Positions 10,674 through 16,313 of a DNA stretch of 40,171 nucleotides are shown in pieces. Positions within the stretch are counted from its first letter, which is position 1. Each line of letters starts with the position of its first letter. The notes below the pieces were generated by a model. The model saw only the letters and a program-made list of their open reading frames with translations. It made no database searches and was not told the DNA's origin. Made by a program: the position numbers and the translations under genes. Location: the NCBI GenBank assembly GCA_025360645.1, contig JANYBT010000024.1:1-40171 (forward strand), given 5' to 3'. The DNA comes from Acidobacteriaceae bacterium (lineage in GTDB: Bacteria > Acidobacteriota > Terriglobia > Terriglobales > Acidobacteriaceae).

Positions 10674-12749
10674 ATGAAGACTTTCTGGTTTTCCGCCCTC
10701 TTGCTGGTTTTGTGTGCGGCCGTTGGTTTTGGCCAGACCGCGCCCGCAGTTCCTGCCACTGCTCCCGTCGTCAAGCCGCTGCAGGCTCTGCCCTATTCGC
10801 CCAGCCTCGACGTCACCTCGATGGACAAATCCATTGACCCCTGCGTGGATTTCTATGCCTACTCGTGCAACGGGTGGATTAAGAAAAATCCCATTCCTGC
10901 CGACCAGTCGAGCTGGAGCGTGTACGGCAAGCTCTACAACGACAATCAGCAGTTTTTGTGGGGCATCCTCGACGACCTGGCGAACAAGACTGCCGGACGC
11001 ACGCCAACCCAGCAGAAGATCGGCGACTATTTTGCCGCCTGCATGGATGAGGCGGCGGTAGAAAAGAAAGGTCTGGCCCCGCTGCAACCGCAGCTCGACG
11101 CCATCCGCGGCCTGCAATCGAAGAAGGATCTGGCCAAAATATTGGCCCCGCTGCATCTGCAGACGCAGACCGACGGCCTGCTGTTCAACTTCGGCTCCAA
11201 TCAGGACTTCGAAAATTCCAACGAAGTGATCGCTTTCTCCGACTCGGGCGGCCTCGGCCTTCCCGACCGCGACTACTACGTCAAGACGGACGACAAGTCG
11301 GTCGAGCTGCGCAATAAATATCTGGCGCACGTGCAGAACATGTTGCAACTGGCCGGAGACTCGCCGGAAGCGGCCAAGCGCGAAGCCGCCGCCATCATGG
11401 CCATCGAAACCGGGCTGGCCAACGCTACCCTCACGCGGGTGGAGAAGCGGGATCCGCATAACCTGTTTCACAAAATGGATCGCGCCAAGATGGTTGCGCT
11501 GACCCCCAGTTTCGACTGGAACACCTACTTGGACAAAGCCGGAGTGGGCAAAGTTCAAGTTTTCAACGTCACCGAGCCCAAGTTTTATGCCGAGGTGGAG
11601 CACCAGTTGCAAACGGCCAGTCTCGACGATCTGAAAACCTACTTGCGCTGGCATGTGCTGCACGCCAATGCGCCCTATCTTTCGTCGAAGTTCGTCAACG
11701 AAAATTTTGCGTTCTACAGCAAGACCTTGCGAGGAGCGGAGCAGTTGCGGCCGCGCTGGAAGCGTTGTGTGTCATTGGTAGACCAGCAACTCGGCGAAGC
11801 CCTGGGCGAGGAGTTTGTGAACCGCGCTTTTGGTCCCGCGATGAAGAAGAAAACTTTGGAAATGACCGGATACATTGAATCGGCGATGCAGCAGGATCTC
11901 GAGCAGCTTTCGTGGATGGACGCCCCGACCAAGGCGAAGGCGTTGGAAAAGCTGCACACCATCGTCAACAAGGTGGGATATCCCGACAAATGGCGCGATT
12001 ACAGTTCGATCGAAATCAAACGCGATGATTTTCAGGGGAATGAGCAGCGCGCCGTCGTCTTTGAAGCCAAGCGCCAACTGGACAAGATTGGCAAGCCGCT
12101 GGATCGCGGAGAATGGGGCATGACACCGCCCACAGTGAACGCCTATTACAACGCGCAGATGAACGACATCAATTTCCCCGCGGGAGTTCTGCAACCGCCG
12201 CTTTATGACGTGAAGATTGACGACGCGCCCAACTACGGCAATACCGGATCGACCATCGGCCATGAACTGACCCATGCCTTCGACGATGAAGGCCGCCAGT
12301 TCGACGCGCAGGGCAACCTGAAAGACTGGTGGACCGAGAAAGACGCGAAGGAATTTGAAAAGCGCACCCAATGCGTGGTGGACCAGTACGCGCAATATAC
12401 GGTGGTGGACGACATCAAGATCAACAGCAAGCTGACTCTGGGCGAAGATGTCGCTGACTTGGGGGGCACCATTCTGGCCTACCTCGCATGGCAAGCGGCT
12501 GACAAAAACCTGCACCTCCACGACGTGGAGGACTTCAATCCCGACCAGCGCTTTTTTGTGGGACTGGCGCAGTGGGCGTGCGAATACGAGCGGCCGGAAT
12601 CGCTGCGCGTGCACGCTGCCACCGATCCCCACTCCCCGGGCAAGTATCGCATCAATGGCGTGGTGGCGAACATTCCGGAATTCCAGAAGGCGTTTTCTTG
12701 CAAGACCGGACAACCCATGGCGCCGGCGAACCGGTGCCGGGTCTGGTAG
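10674..12749 (+). CDS. Secreted M13 family (neprilysin/PepO-like) zinc metallopeptidase
   Basis: 691 residues with an N-terminal signal peptide (MKTFWFSALLLVLCAAVGFG). The catalytic zinc site is HELTH at residues 530-534, the third ligand Glu591 lies in GEDVADLGG (589-597), and the protein ends in CRVW, the conserved M13 C-terminus. M13 enzymes are oligopeptidases that hydrolyse peptides on the amino side of hydrophobic residues. This one acts outside the cytoplasm, in the periplasm or beyond. It starts a plus-strand group; the next gene, also secreted, follows 56 bases later. Such peptidases are abundant in Acidobacteriota. Assignment to the family is certain; the substrate is unknown. Confidence 0.95.
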   Translation: MKTFWFSALLLVLCAAVGFGQTAPAVPATAPVVKPLQALPYSPSLDVTSMDKSIDPCVDFYAYSCNGWIKKNPIPADQSSWSVYGKLYNDNQQFLWGILDDLANKTAGRTPTQQKIGDYFAACMDEAAVEKKGLAPLQPQLDAIRGLQSKKDLAKILAPLHLQTQTDGLLFNFGSNQDFENSNEVIAFSDSGGLGLPDRDYYVKTDDKSVELRNKYLAHVQNMLQLAGDSPEAAKREAAAIMAIETGLANATLTRVEKRDPHNLFHKMDRAKMVALTPSFDWNTYLDKAGVGKVQVFNVTEPKFYAEVEHQLQTASLDDLKTYLRWHVLHANAPYLSSKFVNENFAFYSKTLRGAEQLRPRWKRCVSLVDQQLGEALGEEFVNRAFGPAMKKKTLEMTGYIESAMQQDLEQLSWMDAPTKAKALEKLHTIVNKVGYPDKWRDYSSIEIKRDDFQGNEQRAVVFEAKRQLDKIGKPLDRGEWGMTPPTVNAYYNAQMNDINFPAGVLQPPLYDVKIDDAPNYGNTGSTIGHELTHAFDDEGRQFDAQGNLKDWWTEKDAKEFEKRTQCVVDQYAQYTVVDDIKINSKLTLGEDVADLGGTILAYLAWQAADKNLHLHDVEDFNPDQRFFVGLAQWACEYERPESLRVHAATDPHSPGKYRINGVVANIPEFQKAFSCKTGQPMAPANRCRVW

Positions 12750-12805
12750 GCGGGCATCCCACGTGTGTGGTTGCGAGTCTAACTGAGGGGAGGACTAAGA
12801 ATCGA

Positions 12806-13798
12806 ATGCTGCATTGGCGCCGATATTGCCGGTTGCTCGTCCTCTGCGCTTTCGCCGCGATGGTCCTGGGAGGCAGTCTCAGTCACGCCCAAATTCAGGG
12901 TCTGTCCAAGCGCATTATCCTGAAAGACGGCTCCTTTCAACTTGCCACCAAGTACGAAGTGAAGGGCGACCGGGTTCGCTACCTGAGCGCCGAGCGCGGC
13001 GAGTGGGAAGAGTTGCCCACCTCGATTGTCGATTGGGACGCCACCGAAAGATTCGAGAAAGACCGCGGCAGCGGCGCTCCTCCGCCGGAAGCCAAAGTGC
13101 TCGATAAGGAACTGGAAGAAGAGCAGAAGGCCGAGGAGGCGAAACAGCCCTACGTCGCACCTGGTCTGCAACTTCCCGAGGAAGGCGGGGTGCTCCTGCT
13201 CGACAGCTTTCAGGGTCAGTCCCAATTGGTGGAACTGGAGCAGAGCGACGGCGAAATCAGCAAGAATACCAAGAGCAATATCTTGCGGGCCGCCATCAAT
13301 CCGCTGGCCAGCGCCAAGCAGACCATCGAGTTGCCAGGCACTCACGCCAAGACGCAGGCCCATACCAAGTTGCCGACCATTTATGTGAATGTGCTGCCGC
13401 CAGAGAAGTCCGACGCCGAGGCCCGCCAGCAGCCCGCAGGCCCGCAACAGGCCTTCGACCGCTTCAAGATCGTCCGCATGCAGACCAAGAACGGTAAGCG
13501 CATTGTTGGCGACATCAAGATTGCGATTTACGGCAAAGTCAGCCAGGAACAAAAACTGGTGACGACCGACGCCCGCGAACTGACCGGAGGCTGGGTGAAG
13601 GTGACCCCCACCGCGGAGCTTGCGCCGGGCGAGTATGCCGTGGTGGAAACTCTGGGCCAGGAGGGTCTGAACTTGTTTGTTTGGGATTTCGGAGTGGATC
13701 CCAACGCCCCCGCGAATCCCCATGCCTGGAAGCCGGCAGCTCCGTCCGCGCCCAAGGTGCAAAAAGAACCCAACCTGGAGAAGCGCGAAAAGCCGTAG
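12806..13798 (+). CDS. Secreted protein of unknown function
   Basis: I do not recognise a named family. From the ATG chosen here the protein has 330 residues and begins with a signal peptide (MLHWRRYCRLLVLCAFAAMV, cleavage after about LSHA). A purine-rich GAGGGGAGGA lies about 12 bases upstream. The frame is open further upstream, but only by running out of frame through the end of the peptidase gene, so that extension is not credible. After the signal comes a compact segment (LKDGSFQLATKYEVKGDRVR, with a WEELP block following), then a charged Glu/Lys/Ala-rich stretch (~residues 90-115), and a C-terminal beta-rich part ending in a Pro/Ala/Lys tail. It may be periplasmic or surface-exposed. 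Confidence 0.75.
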   Translation: MLHWRRYCRLLVLCAFAAMVLGGSLSHAQIQGLSKRIILKDGSFQLATKYEVKGDRVRYLSAERGEWEELPTSIVDWDATERFEKDRGSGAPPPEAKVLDKELEEEQKAEEAKQPYVAPGLQLPEEGGVLLLDSFQGQSQLVELEQSDGEISKNTKSNILRAAINPLASAKQTIELPGTHAKTQAHTKLPTIYVNVLPPEKSDAEARQQPAGPQQAFDRFKIVRMQTKNGKRIVGDIKIAIYGKVSQEQKLVTTDARELTGGWVKVTPTAELAPGEYAVVETLGQEGLNLFVWDFGVDPNAPANPHAWKPAAPSAPKVQKEPNLEKREKP

Positions 13799-15593: not shown

Positions 15594-16043
15594 TTACAAA
15601 ACTTTATCGAGGATCCTGGAAATCTCCGATTCCTCAACTTCTCCCGCAGAGTTGTGCAACGCGTTACCCTTGGCGTCGAGCACCACCACGTGCGGGATGT
15701 ATCCCGTGTAGTACTTTTTCACCAGGTCCTGTTGGGCAGGCGATCGTTTCACGTCCAGATCGACCACCACAAAGTGCACCCGTCCCTTATACTTTTCGTA
15801 CAAACTCACGGAGCGGCGAGCCTGCCGCTTCGAATTGAATCAACCCTCGCCGTAGAAAATCACGTAGTTTGGCTGTCCCGCGACAAACCCATCGTCCATG
15901 TTGGTGCCGGTGATCAAGGCGCCATCCTGGCTGTCGCTGGAATAGTTGAGCCGGGGATTGAGCTTTAGATCGTCAGCTGCATTGGCAGAAGCTGCCACGA
16001 AAAGAGCCGCGAAGAAGACGGTAAGAAGAGTCCGACGTTTCAT
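15594..16043 (-). CDS. Secreted thioredoxin-fold protein, probable selenoprotein (UxxS) with in-frame TGA
   Basis: Reading from the ATG at 16043, the frame gives a signal peptide (MKRRTLLTVFFAALFVAASA), a short linker, and a thioredoxin-fold domain, interrupted once by TGA at codon 68 (15842-15840). Both sides are in the same frame with no indel. The TGA follows the strand YVIFYGEG and precedes FNS; it aligns with the first cysteine of the thioredoxin CxxC, giving Sec-x-x-Ser. Downstream are the expected helix, the strand VHFVVVDLD, and the cis-proline GYIPHVVVLD. A SECIS-like hairpin starts 11 bases after the TGA. Expected product: 149 residues with Sec68 and Ser71, a periplasmic thiol/selenol oxidoreductase. 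The alternative is a Cys-to-stop nonsense mutation, but nothing else in the frame is decayed. No selABCD genes are in the window. Confidence 0.75.
15809..15832 (-). promoter_or_regulatory. Bacterial SECIS-like hairpin after the in-frame TGA
   Basis: On the minus strand, nucleotides 11-28 after the TGA form a perfect 6-bp stem AGCGGC / GCCGCU (15829-15824 with 15817-15812) closing a six-base loop AGGCUC. Two more pairs (C-G, G-C) follow outside an A/C mismatch. The loop guanines are 18-19 nucleotides after the TGA. In E. coli fdhF the loop is AGGUCU with its guanines at 19-20. A bulged U as in fdhF is not evident. Confidence 0.65.
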
Positions 16044-16054
16044 GGATGCCCTAT

Positions 16055-16116
16055 AAAAAAGGGCGCCGGTAACTGCAAACGGCCTGTTTTGCCGTCCCCC
16101 GCAGCTTACCGACGCC
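16055..16116 (-). terminator. Terminator-like hairpin directly before the selenoprotein start (possible attenuator)
   Basis: On the minus strand GGCGUCGGUAAGCUGC (16116-16101) pairs with GCAGUUACCGGCGCC (16076-16062): 15 pairs including one G-U, with one bulged G. An inner ACGGC/GCCGU stem sits inside. C and six U follow, ending 11 bases before the ATG at 16043. It is a full intrinsic-terminator structure. Either it ends upstream transcription, or it attenuates the gene behind it. An alternative is a leaderless promoter overlapping it (TTGCAG, 17 bases, TATAGG). Confidence 0.6.
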
Positions 16117-16313
16117 ACCCGCAGTCAGGAGGTCGCCGCAGCGACCAAAATGGCCTTTCGGCTCACTCTTACTGACCTAGAGCAGGGAGGGAGCCAAAGG
16201 TTACGTTTTGACGAAAAAATCTTCATCAAAATCGGCAGGATGCGGCAGGGGCACCCTTGCTCTTCGCATGTTTCGCCAAGTATTAAATATTCAATAACTT
16301 ACGTCCTACTACC
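16117..16313 (-). other. Structured spacer between the M24 peptidase and the selenoprotein gene
   Basis: No open frame of note. On the minus strand I see a stem CCTTTGGCTC / GAGCCGAAAGG (one bulge) enclosing CTCT/AGAG, a perfect hairpin GGTCGC-TGCG-GCGACC (16146-16131), and a possible 6-bp pairing of the loop GGTCAG with CTGACT downstream. A separate AT-rich inverted repeat TTTTGATGAA / TTCGTCAAAA lies at 16206-16231. With the terminator hairpin that follows, this looks like a structured RNA leader or a small RNA gene. It matches no riboswitch class that I recognise. Confidence 0.4.

Follow-up and report, generated by a model that had tools for sequence, protein, structure and literature searches.

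In this work, we analysed a window of 40,171 nucleotides, i.e. the whole stretch of DNA presented above, and focused on a candidate selenoprotein gene carried by its minus strand. The gene runs from 16043 to 15594 as a frame of 149 codons, with an ATG at 16043 and a TAA at 15596-15594, and is open throughout save for a single in-frame TGA at codon 68 (15842-15840), which is followed by 81 codons, just as a preliminary description made from the letters had read it. The interval given there (15594-16043) was accurate in its coordinates and left the strand unsaid; it is the minus strand that carries the gene, and reading the interval on the plus strand gives an unrelated sequence. The description had also foreseen that gene callers would split the gene, and the ORF listing indeed ends the frame at the TGA and leaves a 92-residue, GTG-started ORF at 15840-16118. 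The features of the gene are the following:

15594..16043, minus strand: predicted coding sequence, with TGA68 read as selenocysteine (Sec); homologues align over almost its whole length
15978..16043, minus strand: apparent signal peptide spanning residues 1-22, with A-N-A at its end (cleavage placed by eye)
15840..15842, minus strand: predicted Sec codon TGA, residue 68, directly ahead of the first long helix of the thioredoxin fold (homologue comparison)
15819..15842, minus strand: motif U-F-N-S-K-R-Q-A, residues 68-75 (alignment of 59 homologues)
15812..15829, minus strand: predicted bacterial SECIS hairpin within the reading frame, with a 6-bp stem and the apical loop AGGCUC
15693..15695, minus strand: Pro117, presumed cis-proline (invariant in 59 aligned homologues; predicted model)

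The N-terminus reads by eye as hydrophobic in the window protein and in its homologues, and the predicted model has a lower-confidence helix there. From the signal peptide, likewise read by eye, the protein is apparently exported, i.e. periplasmic or secreted. Throughout this study, ‘mature protein’ designates residue 25 onward, a fixed cut. Elsewhere in the window, a 408-codon frame (12572-13798, plus strand) lies beside MlaE and ABC-transporter genes and gave no Pfam match at an E-value of 0.001; the long frame that precedes it (10674-12749) ends inside it, and the 408-codon frame may have been given a wrong start or be no gene.

The genome (G000; 3.82 Mb, 158 contigs, listed as 99.89 % complete) was searched for the Sec genes that the preliminary description had named as a check, and all of them were retrieved. 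The tRNA-Sec, with anticodon TCA, is found on contig C34 (71.2 bits), selA on contig C151 (543 bits, cut-off 268), selB on contig C107 (366.8 bits, cut-off 242) and selD on contig C103 (361.5 bits, cut-off 125). The selD gene (L038, G000:C103:10512-11441) has one in-frame TGA of its own, in the context AAGUASKL, and SelD is itself a predicted selenoprotein; this context fits the UxxK motif given for Sec-SelD in the portion of PMC13188914 (Table 1) that was covered. The 50 nucleotides from the selD TGA fold at -20.2 kcal/mol, a value without shuffle control.

Homologues were retrieved by unfiltered searches of 200 related genomes, of 397 genomes at the order level and of 396 genomes at the phylum level, and by a pattern scan of a contig collection. 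The protein search of the 200 related genomes gave matches in 19, one of which (G107/L035; 23.8 bits over 50 residues) was left out as a generic thioredoxin match. The remaining 18 genomes, own genome included, hold 19 copies, two of these in G075. These copies, found without any motif filter and counting that of the window, have TGA (10) or Cys (9) at residue 68, and each of the 10 TGA copies contains exactly one TGA, always at the same codon. The pattern scan recovered 54 loci from Acidobacteria, Dadabacteria and delta-type groups, 49 with Cys and 5 with TGA, a ratio that is unfair as an estimate because the scan patterns contained Cys or a nearby segment. The family genes L077 and L084 have TGT and TGC at residue 68, respectively. 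After removal of 12 repeats, 61 distinct genes were kept, i.e. 11 with TGA and 50 with Cys (TGC or TGT); the expectation of Cys or a further TGA at residue 68 in homologues held for 61/61, the degenerate copy L138, outside this set, having Gly.

At the order level, 40 genomes matched, 35 of them above 100 bits; the other 5 scored below 31 bits and were left out of the counts. By inspection, the 35 genomes comprise 10 with TGA, 24 with Cys and 1 with a degenerate copy. At the phylum level, 12 genomes matched, the clear members being only the window gene and the distant L094, whose motif is C-F-N-T-N-R-E-A, while the other 10 genomes gave 11 matches of 28 bits or less each. Degenerate or interrupted copies were kept outside the 61 genes: L138 (G748) has lost its N-terminal half, L139 (G679) is frameshifted and has Cys, and L140 contains an N run, its contig being of equal length to that of L093. 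L138 and L139 point to gene decay in some relatives, or else reflect assembly error.

The selA gene was found over its cut-off in 45 of the 60 family genomes, i.e. in all 11 TGA genomes and in 34 of the 49 Cys-only genomes (one-sided Fisher p = 0.03, uncorrected for relatedness); as most relatives have selA, this association has little power as a test. The branch formed by Dadabacteria and delta-type groups (L063, L064, L066, L071-L073, L075-L079, L083 and L086) includes Cys forms only, in which HR[E/K] or similar mostly precedes CYNSKRQA, and no selA match was obtained in its 13 genomes (13/13).

A tree was built from the 59-row alignment (A3), from which L067 and L093, both cut by N runs, were omitted. 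The TGA label takes 6 changes on this tree, at least 3 of them forced by well-supported branches, and Sec and Cys have therefore probably been swapped several times. Additionally, dN/dS ratios were computed by a simple method for the two halves of the TGA genes. After the TGA, the median is 0.24 and the highest value 0.68 (48 of 55 pairs usable, 7 not computable); before the TGA, the median is 0.26 and the highest value 1.43 (36/36 pairs, with L030 and L031 omitted for an indel).

The 61 genes share the motif [U/C]-x-N-[S/A]-K-R-Q-A. The residues G41, L43, C/U68, N70, K72, R73, Q74, A75 and P117 are invariant in the 59-row alignment, and the N-terminal segment LKLNPxLDYxSDSxDGPLITGD is conserved. 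Position +3 is occupied by Ser in 52/61 genes (11 UxNS and 41 CxNS) and by Ala in 9/61, the distant L094 having Thr there; no Cys was found at +3, as a CxxC or UxxC motif would have, in any of the 61 (S or A in 61/61). The label ‘UxxS’ used in the preliminary description is thus true of the window protein, but Ser is not a conserved feature of the family. More generally, a second Cys or Sec is absent from 60 of the 61 mature proteins (among them L067 and L093, which are truncated by N runs), the exception being L091, with one further Cys 44 residues downstream. The proposal that Sec stands in place of the first Cys of a CxxC motif had accordingly to be abandoned: members of the family sampled here contain just one Cys/Sec, set in an invariant motif [U/C]-x-N-x-K-R-Q-A. 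With a single Cys/Sec, Ser at +3 is therefore no resolving position and the catalytic cycle would have to draw on an outside thiol.

The structure was predicted with AlphaFold2 on 59 homologues, with Cys substituted for Sec (mean pLDDT 91.2, pTM 0.82). The model has a strand at residues 59-64, a helix at 69-85 right after residue 68, and a strand at 118-122 after Pro117. The reactive Cys of thioredoxins likewise sits directly ahead of a helix. Thioredoxins dominate the Foldseek and VIA-align results, the best VIA Z being 12.4 with an rmsd of 1.9 over 96 residues; the absence of other folds from these lists carries no weight.

We further compared codon usage around the TGA. Comparable pairs of the 11 TGA genes agree in their synonymous codon at 93 % for codons 71-78 (averaged over these 8 codons) and at 52.5 % for 88 other codons. 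The former value is the highest among the 89 sliding windows, and none of 100,000 random codon draws attained it. The comparison with Cys genes was carried out on 27 of 49, i.e. those with Gly or Ala ahead of the Cys. Ala75 is encoded by GCT in 11/11 TGA genes, and by GCG (16), GCT (5), GCA (5) or GCC (1) in the 27 Cys genes; residue 78 is Ser (TCC) in 11/11 TGA genes and Thr in 26/27 Cys genes, the T of TCC closing the stem of the predicted hairpin.

This hairpin consists of a 6-bp stem and the loop AGGCUC, with 16 nt from UGA to loop. Its stem pairs are standard in 66/66 cells, all 6 pairs being present in 11/11 TGA genes and in 0/50 Cys genes. One compensatory change, from G-C to C-G, was found in L021, both substitutions being at synonymous wobble positions; this covariation, one pair in one sequence, is matched by 53 of 500 shuffles, so often because only one sequence varies. 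Taken alone, the window hairpin is unremarkable in energy (z of -1.14), 26 of 200 shuffles folding equally well. The bacterial SECIS (bSECIS) model, as given in the part of PMC13188914 covered, calls for a G within the first two loop nucleotides and for a UGA-to-loop distance of 16-37 nt, which is given also in the part of PMC10778597 covered. The loop G and the spacing of the hairpin both fit this model, 16 nt being the lower limit, and the case for a putative SECIS is mostly one of missing synonymous variation and fit to the model. The exact AGGCTC loop is kept by 4 of the 50 Cys genes (L024, L027, L053 and L068) and all six pairs by none; these four loops are possibly relics of a former SECIS left after a Sec-to-Cys change.

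Regarding gene neighbourhood, a gene for a short DsbH-like protein (PF03190, for L042) adjoins the family gene in 8 loci, two of them Sec loci (L018 and L021) and six Cys loci (L042, L046, L056, L059, L061 and L062). This neighbour is apparently secreted and has a WCAWC, WCPWC or WCPTC motif in 7/8 loci, that of L062 being cut by the contig end. Using the L021 copy as query, i.e. a copy from a genome holding the pair, we searched the 200 related genomes and found, among the matches listed, scores above 200 bits in 5 of the 18 genomes with the family and in 0 of the 182 without it (frames of 188-280 residues; one-sided Fisher p = 3.4e-6, among the matches listed and uncorrected for relatedness). 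The 200-bit line is post hoc, drawn once a gap between 212.5 and 172.2 bits had been seen among the matches listed, and the other genomes contain, among these matches, many longer, lower-scoring DUF255 proteins. The own genome is one of the 5, its copy lying on a separate contig (C125), and 13/18 family genomes have no DsbH-like match above 200 bits among those listed. The association is clear within the sample and not universal. In genome G075, a Sec copy and a Cys copy of the gene coexist on different contigs (L020, L036), and the DsbH-like neighbour adjoins only the Cys one.

Other neighbours were surveyed as well. Near part of the Acidobacteria loci, genes for a glycosyltransferase (13/61), Peripla_BP_4 (14), an M24 peptidase (11) and MlaE/ABC components (9-10) were found. 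Neighbours in the Dadabacteria group are different (a TetR regulator, a Zn-ribbon protein and others, named by eye) and partly shared within the branch. As neighbours differ between groups, they give no general clue to function.

Several readings of the TGA have to be weighed. It could be a real stop, whether by pseudogene formation, by sequencing error or because the gene encodes only a 67-residue secreted peptide: the ORF listing does end the frame there, and, of 20 long window frames chosen by hand, 6 terminate in TGA, which thus serves as an ordinary stop in this genome too. Against this stand 11 distinct genomes with a TGA at the same codon, a conserved half after the TGA (median dN/dS of about 0.24) and the extra nucleotide constraint on codons 71-78, on which sequencing error and pseudogene were rejected, and a real stop in any form is extremely improbable. 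Genome-wide reassignment of TGA to Trp, Gly or Cys, for which nothing speaks beyond the open frame, has a probability close to nil and was rejected likewise, since TGA acts as a normal stop in the six frames just mentioned, the homologues have Cys at residue 68 and neither Trp nor Gly (save L138), and the full set of Sec genes is present. Insertion of Sec at codon 68 is, on the sequence evidence, nearly certain.

As to function, the main rival is a secreted Sec protein whose chief role would be that of a peroxidase, of 1-Cys peroxiredoxin-like or GPx-like type, and not that of a disulfide oxidoreductase. A single conserved Cys/Sec with the invariant polar residues Asn70 and Gln74 nearby would suit it, and Sec is found in peroxiredoxins and GPx-like proteins according to the part of PMC13188914 covered. 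However, the Pfam and NCBIfam matches listed are mostly of thioredoxin type and include no peroxiredoxin or GPx model, which is no proof of absence as weak relatives could escape, and a DsbH-like neighbour occurs in 8 loci, with WCxxC in the 7 where that part is present; a mainly peroxidatic role is unlikely on balance. Less probable still is a thiol- or metal-binding retention factor that would trap client thiols by a mixed bond and catalyse nothing. CxxS proteins of the PDI group, e.g. ERp44, trap client thiols in this manner, and such a role would agree with one Cys/Sec followed by x-x-Ser, with the conserved basic KRQ patch and with the segment LKLNPxLDYxSDSxDGPLITGD, which could dock a client. 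Sec is costly and usually reserved for catalysis, which would argue against a mere trap, and the repeated Sec/Cys exchange on the tree suggests a tuning of rate, so that a retention factor appears improbable.

We thus favour a one-selenol oxidoreductase. That the protein is a one-selenol enzyme and no CxxC derivative is held with very high confidence, and the joint claim of Sec68 and a one-selenol oxidoreductase, in a wide sense that includes peroxide reduction, with high confidence. The ‘selenol oxidoreductase’ of the preliminary description is likely right in its general sense but not as an enzyme of CxxC type, the protein being more probably one that works with a single selenol and depends on an external partner. 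In the mechanism we propose, UGA68 would be decoded as Sec by SelA, SelB, SelC and SelD, guided by the in-frame SECIS just downstream. Sec68, which would be the only reactive chalcogen of the mature protein, would sit at the helix start beside the invariant Asn70, Lys72, Arg73 and Gln74, and act as the nucleophile that attacks a disulfide, a sulfenic acid or a peroxide of an exported client, giving a mixed selenenylsulfide or a selenenic acid. Because the protein is without a second Cys, an external thiol protein would be required to release and regenerate Sec68, the likeliest being the apparently secreted WCxxC DsbH-like protein; that this protein is indeed the partner is a plausible proposal, to which we give slightly less than an even chance. 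More tentative is the whole scheme, i.e. an extracytoplasmic two-protein relay of Terriglobia in which a one-Sec protein may act on the client, the co-encoded WCxxC DsbH-like protein may resolve the product, Sec and Cys have been swapped repeatedly and some Cys genes keep a relic SECIS; we consider it possible but rather doubtful as a complete picture.

Genes of this type are cut in two by standard reading, and little selenoproteome work was found for the phylum Acidobacteriota. In the part of PMC12013277, the deep-Sep paper, that was covered, one acidobacterial genome is given with three known and no new selenoproteins, and in the literature on selenoproteins with UxxS or in Acidobacteria/Acidobacteriota we found no description of this family. 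The close Sec and Cys relatives, G075 with both forms and the single reactive residue together offer a clean natural test of the benefit of Sec outside the cytoplasm, for which the DsbH-like association provides a concrete candidate partner.

Finally, we compared the family with known systems. The portion covered of PMC13188914 (2026), with 119 prokaryotic selenoprotein families, has no thioredoxin-fold UxNS family that could be equated with it, entries being set apart by their descriptions, and the older selenoprotein table of PMC9312934 has no such entry in the part covered. As no family in the former table matches by description, within that portion, the present one is taken as a new selenoprotein family; it appears to be uncatalogued and would add to the 119 listed. 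The UxxS entries in the part of Table 1 of PMC13188914 covered (arsenate reductase TIGR00014, rhodanese form 1 PF00581 and peroxiredoxin-like cd02970) share the Sec-x-x-Ser spacing but lie in different domain families; neither PF00581 nor TIGR00014 occurs among the Pfam and NCBIfam matches listed, and cd02970 is in neither library. The second-ranking NCBIfam model, NF045694 (rhodanese/DsbD fusion-like selenoprotein TsoB), also a selenoprotein family, is weakly matched by 14 of 19 members (best 3.6e-5); with the window protein it scores 16.9 bits (cut-off 805), over residues 77-130, i.e. after the Sec position, against 498-551 of the 572 model positions. TsoB is a large two-Sec protein in the part of that Table 1 covered.

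The best NCBIfam match of the window protein is NF038096, the slr1796 thylakoid membrane photosystem I accumulation factor (8.6e-12, residues 47-148), a model matched by 19/19 members scanned; the window protein reaches 44.9 bits, below the curated cut-off of 140. The slr1796 protein is listed as a thylakoid-specific thioredoxin in the part of PMC7880944 covered, whereas the host here is not a cyanobacterium and part of the family has Sec. In Pfam, Thioredoxin_2 (PF13098) is matched at 26.2 bits, just below its gathering score of 27 bits. The PF13098 ‘Thiol:disulfide interchange protein’ selenoprotein, as it appears in the part of PMC13188914 (Table 1) covered, is alike in its Thioredoxin_2-type domain and in having Sec at the first active-site position, but it is UxxC, whereas here the motif is U-x-N-S and the mature protein lacks a second Cys. 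With classical thioredoxins (PF00085, including the UxxC Sec-thioredoxin), it shares the fold, a reactive residue before the long helix and the invariant Pro117, and it differs from them in lacking CxxC, in being apparently secreted and in having its own motif, x-N-x-K-R-Q-A.
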